Positions 5,487 to 40,978 of a stretch of 41,017 nt of DNA are shown in pieces. Source of the DNA: Verrucomicrobiota bacterium (GTDB lineage: Bacteria; Chlamydiota; Chlamydiia; Chlamydiales; Rhabdochlamydiaceae); contig JAFEGK010000012.1 of NCBI GenBank assembly GCA_018239985.1, forward strand, positions 2,870 to 43,886, in the 5' to 3' direction. The notes under the pieces are model-generated. The model searched no databases. It saw only the letters and a list, made by a program, of their open reading frames with translations, and had not been told where the DNA came from. A program made the position numbers and the translations under genes. The stretch's first letter is position 1; each line of letters starts with the position of its first letter.

Positions 5487-5503
5487 TTTGTGGACAGTCT
5501 CTA
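5487..5503. repeat. Solo end of a GAGACTGTCC-family element
   Basis: TTTGTGGACAGTCTC followed by TAA repeats the terminal sequence of the element at 10850-11019, with no second half nearby. It is probably the remnant of a deleted copy, only 12 bases from the end of the neighbouring foldback element's direct repeat. Confidence 0.6.
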
Positions 5504-5562
5504 AAACCTAATTTTTTAGTATAACGCCATCCTTTCTCTGGTGGTGAAGCAATAGACTTACC

Positions 5563-10601: not shown

Positions 10602-10772
10602 TATACCGAAACAACCTGAAGAATCGGTTTTTGGCTGCGACGGCATCCTAGATTTCGAATATGCCTGCATCGCTCAACCTATTCAGGTTGAGCTGCTTCG
10701 TCGCCGCTGCGCTGATTCAAACTCTAGGCGCCGGCTTTGCGAAAAACCGATTCTTCAGGTTGTTTCGGTATA
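10602..10772. repeat. Foldback element, CCGAAACAACC family, copy 1
   Basis: A 171 bp inverted repeat. The outer 31 bp pair without mismatch (TATACCGAAACAACCTGAAG... with the reverse complement ending at 10772). The inner arms pair imperfectly around a central CTCAACCT-ATTC-AGGTTGAG hairpin (10673-10692). A second copy of identical length lies at 11783-11953 with about eight differences, and a broken end lies at 23440-23471. TATA flanks both ends, consistent with a TA or TATA target duplication. No coding capacity. Confidence 0.9.
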
Positions 10773-11137
10773 AAAGTCTAGACACTTATTATGCTTAATA
10801 AATGCAACCAATTTAGTCATTTCTTTATGAAGATCATCCAATTGCCTAAGAGACTGTCCACAAACCCAGGTTTCGCCAATTTTCGGGATTATTTTGGCCG
10901 ATTTTCGATTCAAATTTTGGGGGTCATATTCGAAGAGTGATATTACCCCCAAAATTTGAATCGAAAATCGGCTCAAAAGAACCCGAAAATTCGCTGAAAC
11001 TGAGTTTGTGGACAGTCTCTAATGATTTGATAGTCTTTATATCCATAATAGAGCATTAAGCAACCTCCTACTCCTACTACTCCTCCTAGAAGTATTTTTT
11101 TAAGTCTGCCTTGATTTAGGGGTGAAAGTTGTCTCAT
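10755..11137 (-). pseudogene. Small membrane-protein gene interrupted by foldback elements
   Basis: Minus-strand reading from ATG at 11137 gives MRQLSPLNQGRLKKILLGG, a Gly-rich hydrophobic helix and LYYGYKDYQII up to 11023. The 170 bp element at 10850-11019 follows. Removing it with one copy of the flanking TAA restores the frame exactly: ...DYQII joins RQLDDLHKEMTKLVAFIKH, a charged helical tail, at 10849. The present stop codon (10755-10757) lies inside the next foldback element, so the original C-terminus is also displaced. The frame is open upstream of ATG (WAQYSSLAIGIIFTAG, hydrophobic) with no start codon, so the N-terminus may be lost too. I do not recognise the family. Confidence 0.65.
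10850..11019. repeat. Full-length GAGACTGTCC foldback element with TAA duplication
   Basis: A 170 bp near-perfect palindrome from GAGACTGTCCACAAAC to GTTTGTGGACAGTCTC. TAA stands directly on both sides (10847-10849 and 11020-11022). Its centre holds a GGGGGT...ACCCCC hairpin whose loop resembles that of the element at 11687-11757. Termini of this general kind and a 3-bp TNA-type duplication are reminiscent of IS5-group elements, so it may be a non-autonomous derivative; no transposase is in the window. Other copies or pieces are at 1-47, 5487-5503, 40777-40788 and 40872-40978. Confidence 0.9.
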
Positions 11138-11173: not shown

Positions 11174-11222
11174 ATACTGCGCCCACCTTACTTCCTCACG
11201 AATTGCAGGATCTGGGCAGTAT
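11174..11222. repeat. Short palindromic fragment shared with the 11953 element
   Basis: ATACTGCGCCCA pairs with TGGGCAGTAT (two-base bulge). The reverse complement (CCTGCAATTCGTGAGG and flanks) recurs with few changes inside the element at 11953-12110. It lies between the broken gene and the DUF378 promoter. Confidence 0.6.
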
Positions 11223-11614: not shown

Positions 11615-11686
11615 ATCCTAAATAGCGTCGAAAAACATGGCCCTTTAGGGCGTGGTGTAAGGCGGTTTTTTTGAGGATTTTTTGGC

Positions 11687-11757
11687 AAATTTTCTCTTCC
11701 TTTGTTGGGGGTAATATACGTGGGTTGATATAACCCCCAACAAAGAAGAGAAAATTT
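11687..11757. repeat. Foldback element with CTCTTCCTTTGTTGGGGGT arms
   Basis: A 71 bp hairpin: AAATTTTCTCTTCCTTTG TTGGGGGT pairs with its complement at 11733-11757 with a single bulged base. The left flank (TTTTTTGAGGATTTTT) is also shared with a second, half-length copy at 40805-40871. No coding content. Confidence 0.8.
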
Positions 11758-11782
11758 TTTATATAACATTTTAAATACTATA

Positions 11783-11953
11783 TATACCGAAACAACCTGA
11801 AGAATCGGTTTTTGGCTGCGCCGGCATCCTGGATTTCGAATCCGCCTGCATCGCTCAACCTATTCAGGTTGAGCTGCTTCGTCGCCGCTGGGCTGATTCA
11901 AACTCCAGGCGCCAGCTTTGCCAAAAACCGATTCTTCAGGTTGTTTCGGTATA
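11783..11953. repeat. Foldback element, CCGAAACAACC family, copy 2
   Basis: 171 bp, the same length and orientation-free structure as 10602-10772 and about 95% identical by eye. An A-T pair in copy 1 (10650/10725) is a G-C pair here (11831/11906), and a G/G mismatch (10633/10741) is a G-C pair here (11814/11922), so pairing is preserved or improved. It directly abuts the next foldback element. Confidence 0.9.
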
Positions 11954-12110
11954 ACTCAAGTTGCCACCCTCTTTTTCTCTATGGAATAGCGAACTGCCCA
12001 GGTCCTGCAATTCGTGAGGTAGGAAGGTGGGCACACCTTCCTGACGAACGAAGTGCTGGAGGTGGGTAGTGCAGCTTTCATAGAGGAAATATGGGGTGGC
12101 AACTTGGGTT
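11953..12110. repeat. Foldback element with ACCCAAGTTGCC ends
   Basis: An imperfect 158 bp inverted repeat: AACTCAAGTTGCCACCC... pairs with ...GGGTGGCAACTTGGGTT, and the centre has AGGAAGGTG-GGCA-CACCTTCCT. The ends resemble those of the element at 5315-5470. The last T is shared with the TAA stop codon of the receiver-MBL gene (12110-12112). Its interior contains the sequence also found at 11174-11222. Confidence 0.75.
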
Positions 12111-13426
12111 TACAACATCAACTTCATGCCGTCGTAGGCCATTTGTGTATGGCAATGGAGCTGGCATTGCTGCAAAATGTCTCTTTGCAGCTGCAATTTT
12201 TCTAGAAGCATTTGATCAGTATGTTTGGGGTCGTGGTGGGTGACGATCCACTCGGTGATTTGGGCGTATTTACAGAGGATTGCGGCATTGGCGACCGATG
12301 AGTGGCCCCAACCGACTCTCTTTTCGTATTCTTCCTGAGTATATTGCGCTTCATGGATGAGCACATCGGTATTTTTGTAAAAGTCGATGAGGCTCTGCTG
12401 CGATTTGATGAGGGGATGGTCGGGGCCAAGATTATTGGGATTGCCATGGTAGCCTAGGAAGAGTTCATTGTCCGTCGCGTAGCCGTAGGTTTTGCCGGCG
12501 ATGTGGATTTTAAAGCAGAGGGTAGCGCCAGGGTGATAGGCATAGTGGCAATCGATTTTGATATTGCCGATCGAGACGCTATGGCCATCGCGCAGATCGT
12601 TAAATGACAACTTAGCTTTCATATCTTCGAGCCGAACGGGGAAGTAGTCGTAGGCTAGCATTTCAGTGAGGAGCTCTTTAGTCGATTTTTCAAAGCCAAC
12701 TGGGGTCCAGATCACGAGGTGGACATTGGGGTTATAGACTGGATCGAAAAAAGGGAAGCCGGTGATGTGATCCCAGTGGGTGTGGGATATGAAGAGATGG
12801 ATGGTTTTGTGCTTGGTCGTGTCGATGGCTTGTCCAAGGGGGAGGATGCCTGTTCCAGCGTCAAAAATGATTAGATCATCACCGTGGCGCACTTCTAGGC
12901 ACGAGGTGTTGCCTCCAAAGCGGTCGTAGTCGGCTCCGGAAACAGGATTTGAGCCCCGTGTGCCCCAAAAATGGAGGTATGAGTCGGGTTCGTGTGTTTT
13001 AGGATGATAGACTTCGTGTTCCGCAGTTGGGGGGGGCGAAGGAAGGGGATCGGGAAGTAGGTTTCCTTCAAAGAAGCGGTTGAAGAGTATATAGAGAAAG
13101 GGGATCTCGAAGGGTTTGACGAGGAAATAATCGGCTCCCGCTTGGAGAGCGGCATGGCAATTTTGGATCATCGAATTGGGTGAGGCGATGATCACACCGA
13201 TCCCTTCGGTTTTGGGATTACTCCGGATCCGTTTGAGAAGTTCGATTCCATGCATGTGGGGGATCATCAAATCGATCATGACTAGATCGGGTTGAAACGT
13301 GGCCAGTTTTTTAAGCAACTCTTCGCCCGTATGGGCCTCTTCAAAGGTATAGTGTTCGCTCCCAGGGGCATTCCTTATTCTGTTTAGAAGTGCCGTATCT
13401 GGGTCGCCTATCAGAATTTTTTGCAT
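12110..13426 (-). CDS. Response-regulator receiver domain fused to an MBL-fold hydrolase
   Basis: A 438-residue, probably cytosolic protein. Residues 1-120 form a receiver domain with acidic pocket D8/D10, phospho-acceptor D52 (VMIDLMIP), S82 and K104 (LVKPF). A Pro-rich linker (about 125-134) leads to an MBL domain: FDAGTG, HTHWDH (215-220), YATDNELF and late His residues in GHSSVANA and THHDPKHTD. All switch and metal residues needed for activity are visible. The likely reading is a hydrolase controlled by phosphorylation; the substrate is unknown, though cyclic-nucleotide phosphodiesterase-like MBL enzymes are similar in outline. The start is ATG at 13426, four bases after the ftsK stop and preceded by GAGG. 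No histidine kinase is in the window. Confidence 0.88.
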   Translation of the reverse strand: MQKILIGDPDTALLNRIRNAPGSEHYTFEEAHTGEELLKKLATFQPDLVMIDLMIPHMHGIELLKRIRSNPKTEGIGVIIASPNSMIQNCHAALQAGADYFLVKPFEIPFLYILFNRFFEGNLLPDPLPSPPPTAEHEVYHPKTHEPDSYLHFWGTRGSNPVSGADYDRFGGNTSCLEVRHGDDLIIFDAGTGILPLGQAIDTTKHKTIHLFISHTHWDHITGFPFFDPVYNPNVHLVIWTPVGFEKSTKELLTEMLAYDYFPVRLEDMKAKLSFNDLRDGHSVSIGNIKIDCHYAYHPGATLCFKIHIAGKTYGYATDNELFLGYHGNPNNLGPDHPLIKSQQSLIDFYKNTDVLIHEAQYTQEEYEKRVGWGHSSVANAAILCKYAQITEWIVTHHDPKHTDQMLLEKLQLQRDILQQCQLHCHTQMAYDGMKLML

Positions 13427-40871: not shown

Positions 40872-40978
40872 GAGACTGTACACAAACCCAGGTTTCGCCA
40901 ATTTTCGGGCTTATTTTGGCCGCTTTTCGATTCAAAAGAACCCGCAAATTGGCTGAAACTTAGTTTGTGGACAGCCTC
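40872..40978. repeat. Short GAGACTGTCC-family element lacking the central hairpin
   Basis: A 107 bp version of 10850-11019: GAGACTGTACACAAACCCAGG to AGTTTGTGGACAGCCTC. The central GGGGGT...ACCCCC hairpin (about 63 bp) is absent. Left flank is TAA, right flank TCA, so no clean duplication remains; the right half of the interrupted target is missing as well, which suggests a deletion at that side. Confidence 0.8.

Follow-up and report, generated by a model that had tools for sequence, protein, structure and literature searches.

The window, by which we mean the whole analysed stretch of 41,017 nucleotides, contains an intergenic region between a yycJ-like gene and a DUF378 gene. This region is a repeat graveyard, and the element E1 lies within it. 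As the earlier note had described, a palindrome of 170 bp is located at 10850-11019 with TAA on either flank. The arms of E1 are 81 nt long and 86% complementary, and the loop between them comprises 10 nt. The features of the region are as follows.

10602-10772, plus strand: E2, a second foldback element unrelated to E1, with a TA duplication
10755-10849, minus strand: C-terminal open half (RQLDDLHKEM...), with its stop codon inside E2
10847-10849, plus strand: TAA target duplication, left of E1
10850-11019, plus strand: E1, a 170-bp foldback MITE, recognised by its copies in the own genome, terminal repeats and duplications
10850-10869, plus strand: left terminal inverted repeat of E1, GAGACTGTCCACAAACCCAG, the exchangeable part
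10875-10994, plus strand: palindromic core of E1, recurring across the order (model R1, 132 bits)
11000-11019, minus strand: right terminal inverted repeat of E1, GAGACTGTCCACAAACTCAG
11020-11022, plus strand: TAA target duplication, right of E1
11020-11137, minus strand: open half with the N-terminus of the frame that rejoining would give (MRQLSPL...DYQII), without homologue
11178-11220, minus strand: remnant (43 bp) of a third repeat family, E3, whose ends are CCCAAGTTGCC
11664-11779, plus strand: diverged relative of the E1 core, a palindrome with different stems (62 bits)

In the genome to which the window belongs (the own genome), E2 is represented by nine full-length copies of at least 94% identity, and the E3 scrap at 11178-11220 is 91-95% identical to copies elsewhere. 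A second copy of E2 occupies 11783-11953 of the window, and a full E3 copy with the same CCCAAGTTGCC ends follows directly, at about 11955-12112. An 8-bp duplication is suggested by the E3 copies L041 and L046, as judged by eye. Further traces of E1 itself were observed in the window, namely a short variant at 40872-40978 in which much of the core is missing, the truncated end of one more copy at 1-47, where the window begins, and a lone E1 end at 5487-5535. The latter adjoins a match to the start of the IS5-type element L190 (TAAAACCTAATTTTTTAGTAT), which is perhaps the result of an insertion into an IS remnant.

E1 is a mobile element

E1 is short (170 bp), non-coding and multicopy (about 20 full copies) and carries terminal inverted repeats, as is characteristic of a MITE. 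The own genome is available as a draft assembly of 1.8 Mb in 25 contigs, which breaks at repeats. Among the full-length copies in it, four are identical over 170 bp, and many partial copies were found besides. The 15-bp end of E1 occurs 48 times in this genome, and the reversed control does not occur at all. A perfect 3-bp TNA duplication was observed around every own-genome copy examined with both ends (18/18). Such a duplication is of the fixed length expected for a MITE, and it agrees with the 3-bp TNA of the IS1031-like group of the IS5 family, of which the TNA target duplication is presumably a trait. When the element and one 3-bp repeat are subtracted from copy L007, the remaining sequence (CCCGTTCCGTTTCAAAGGCACCCAAA) is present uninterrupted at the loci L002 and L035. 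Thus, 3 bp are duplicated at L007 relative to related empty sites elsewhere in the own genome. No empty site was found for the window locus itself, and the L007 evidence comes from another copy. The insertion is proven because of the TNA duplications and the related empty site, and not because of the reading frame considered below. The earlier note was therefore right that the palindrome is a mobile unit whose insertion duplicated 3 bp, and E1 is a genuine mobile element of an environmental chlamydia, a MITE. No match to E1 was found on plasmids or phages, or to the exact core pattern in viral contigs.

A common core with dissimilar ends

Some partial matches to E1 in the own genome begin at about base 21 and break off at varying points from about base 128 to base 165, so elements with other ends were suspected. 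By comparing 60 stretches from six genomes besides the own genome, one palindromic core of ~120 bp (GTCGATTTTCGGGATTATTTTGGCCGATTTTCG...CGAAAATCGGCTCAAAAGAACCCGAAAATCGAC) was identified, flanked by dissimilar ends of ~20 bp. The ends of the core elements in the own genome are GAGACTGTCCACAAAC, GAGGGTGTCTTCAAATTC, GAACCTATCTCAATAAAA, GGAGGGTGCCTCCGAACT and others, and the core was found in elements of about ten end classes overall. Between pairs from different genomes and end classes, the mean identity is 77% for the core versus 47% for the ends, and random ends give 37%. Varied ends were seen again in twenty further core examples, of which ten belong to other families of the order. When the core was searched for with a covariance model, it was detected in 60 of the order's 234 genomes; these represent 43 of its 147 genera and several families, but five genomes of the same genus gave no match. 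A crude boundary test of 61 other core elements showed a perfect TNA duplication in only 14. Of 65 elements, 58 show a fixed difference between the left and right arms (ATTATTTTGGCC versus TTCTTTTGAGCC), and a few elements carry one arm type twice, as if it had been copied onto the opposite arm.

It could be argued that the ends drifted gradually together with their transposases, with the core unchanged and without any swapping. The loose GAG/GAA..CTGT pattern shared by the end types is consistent with such a course, as is their similarity above the random expectation. However, several dissimilar end types coexist within single genomes, where the cores are up to 99% identical, and two elements (L202 and L199) have hybrid structure with two different ends, so we regard gradual drift as doubtful. 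The hybrid-ended element L199 (G031:C36) is itself located within an IS5-type transposase ORF.

Two terminal types of the core family match IS5-family elements that do not contain the core. In genome G031 (L190), an IS5-type transposase ORF begins just inside the end GAAGCTGTACTAAAACCT, and the core elements L242, L244, L246, and L249 are bounded by these same 18 bp. The sequence departs after this shared end, and no core is present between the end and the ORF. In genome G020 (L191), an ORF of the same transposase families lies between GAACCTGTTCAAAATCTC ends, and GAACCTGTTCAAAATCTC is also the end of the core element L274 from G152. The ORFs in both genomes match PF13340 above the cut-off and NF033580 partially, below its cut-off. 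Candidate autonomous partners with matching ends were thus identified for two further end types in the family and none for that of E1; no transposase with E1's own ends (GAGACTGTCCACAAA, GAGACTGTCC) was detected by PF01609 in the own genome or by PF13340 in eleven genomes. The own genome, whose assembly breaks at repeats, contains no match to PF01609 or PF13340.

MITEs are normally read as crippled deletion derivatives of one insertion sequence. E1 resembles the IS5-related bacterial MITEs in being short, palindromic, multicopy and non-coding, with terminal inverted repeats and TNA duplications, and genomes related to its own hold IS5-type transposases with the ends of sibling elements. On the other hand, the core is absent from the IS elements with the same ends, and therefore the interior, unlike that of a usual MITE, does not look IS-derived; it is common to elements with many dissimilar ends. 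TIMEs, miniature elements derived from Tn3, are reported to build mosaic non-autonomous transposons (PMC4133298). On that description the E1 family is similar in combining non-autonomous ends and interiors as mosaics, but TIMEs depend on another transposase family, whereas in the E1 family one small palindromic core recurs. In the accessible sections of a Rhabdochlamydia study, an IS expansion was reported and an ancient chlamydial transposase pool was proposed (PMC9723776). The point in common with E1 is the expansion of IS elements in chlamydiae, although these sections describe transposase genes and the term MITE is absent from them. In the titles and abstract openings of the papers listed for MITEs in Chlamydiae and in Parachlamydia/Protochlamydia, no such elements are described.

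Stop codons and the supposed broken gene

Seven of the 18 own E1 copies (L001, L006, L008, L029, L039, L016, and L025) are inserted exactly on a stop codon, where 1.3 would be expected (P about 5e-5, for crudely called ORFs of at least 90 aa and with nearby TNA sites outside ORFs as the null). At these insertions the target duplication preserves the stop. A similar excess was obtained with other end types, among whose 14 core elements with a perfect TNA duplication 5 lie on stop codons (0.74 expected, P about 5e-5); the nulls of the two tests are slightly different, and the ORF calls are crude. The window copy is not among the stop-codon insertions. With so many siblings on stop codons, it does not follow that the palindrome is "not a terminator or regulatory site", as had been stated, and a hairpin on a stop codon could affect mRNA 3' ends. 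In the REP/BIME and RAYT systems and the Rickettsia palindromic elements, palindromes are dispersed close to genes and frequently follow them directly. The E1 family resembles REP/BIME and the Rickettsia elements in this placement just downstream of genes, but E1 has IS-type ends with TNA duplications.

The core might accordingly be seen as a functional RNA hairpin (terminator-like or an mRNA 3'-end stabiliser) under host selection, to which the mobile ends are incidental. Changes on both sides in 25 of the 47 core pairs, the conserved internal asymmetry and the excess at stop codons would all agree with this. However, the core pairs show about as many G-U as A-C mispairs (28 versus 27, with one nearly invariant G-U pair left out), which gives no sign that either strand is under selection as RNA, and selection on RNA structure was rejected as the main reading on this ground. 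Arm copying, a cause at the DNA level, would fit the paired changes better. The presence of the core is also patchy, down to its lack of a match in the five same-genus genomes. A search of Rfam gave nothing above the gathering score; the sub-threshold matches, mostly miRNA precursors, were taken as chance products of a long hairpin. A host-selected RNA is thus an unlikely explanation of the core.

The earlier note had drawn its proof of insertion from the reading frame. Excision of E1 with one TAA does join MRQLSPLNQGRLKKILLGGVVGVGGCLMLYYGYKDYQII to RQLDDLHKEMTKLVAFIKHNKCLDFYTETT in frame (...DYQII + RQLDDLHKEM...), and the rejoined frame of 69 aa, which begins with the ATG at 11137, has its stop within E2 (10602-10772), that is, in a second, different element, just as had been reported. 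Its product would have a plausible membrane helix and a charged tail. When both E1 and E2 are removed, the frame stays open for another ~21 codons, up to where the yycJ-like gene ends, which is unremarkable by chance. One could therefore imagine that a real gene for a small membrane protein was interrupted by E1 and afterwards by E2, leaving a pseudogene, and it is possible that one ancestral gene was hit by both. However, whatever is excised, a frame of some kind is restored. In 2000 dinucleotide shuffles, a junction-crossing ORF of at least 69 codons appeared at a rate of 12% when any start was allowed and of 6% when ATG was required, and 29 open codons past the junction were seen in 21% of 4000 shuffled flanks. 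Because similar frames arise by chance at these rates of 6-21%, frame restoration proves nothing about the insertion. A search of the order's 234 genomes for the joined protein, which the earlier note had proposed to look for in relatives, gave no homologue, and within this range the absence counts against the claim by the note's own reckoning. The Pfam matches of the joined protein are all below the cut-off, and NCBIfam gave none. The N-terminal half has no homologue in 77 relatives, the sole matches being repeat DNA or marginal, and no match to the frame was found in the syntenic gaps of relatives (next to the yycJ-like MBL protein, the response-regulator/MBL genes and the FtsK neighbours). 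An ancestral gene for the small protein is consequently unsupported. In addition, the in-frame stretch upstream of the ATG is partly the 43-bp scrap of E3 (11178-11220). Conserved upstream residues (YCPDPAIREEVRWAQYSS) were considered as homology and rejected, since they derive from the repeat family. Taken together, a broken gene at this locus is very unlikely. The chance that faulty assembly produced the insertion or its flanks is practically negligible, for although the assembly is a draft with N runs in several copies and contigs ending at copies, the window copy is without N, and identical duplications on both sides of 18/18 copies would not be expected from random misjoins.

Proposed explanation

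We hypothesize, with good confidence, that E1 is a non-autonomous IS5-type MITE with a shared core and differing ends, which is mobilised in trans and tolerated after genes. A transposase acting in trans on the ~20-bp terminal repeats would make a cut staggered by 3 bp in a TNA target, and E1 would have been inserted in this way at TAA. With different terminal repeats, the same ~120-bp core would become movable by different IS5-like transposases. New end types probably arise via recombination within the shared core, which would yield the two-ended hybrids, and after this stage one arm may be replaced by a copy of its partner. Where an element is inserted on a stop codon, the gene would remain intact, and such insertions may thus be tolerated or even favoured. 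E1 in the window would have landed in an intergenic repeat graveyard, so no real gene need have been broken.

More tentatively, the core could be an independent selfish module, specific to no single end type and belonging to this order of chlamydiae, that repeatedly gains terminal repeats and transposases and spreads via harmless or helpful landings on stop codons. Its new ends would come from recombination and arm copying, and a core placed on a stop codon may even help to end transcripts. If it is true that the core is common to 43 genera while its ends change, the passenger rather than the IS would be what persists, and it would be able to change drivers. The placement on stop codons would explain how dozens of copies are tolerated in a gene-dense, reduced genome.
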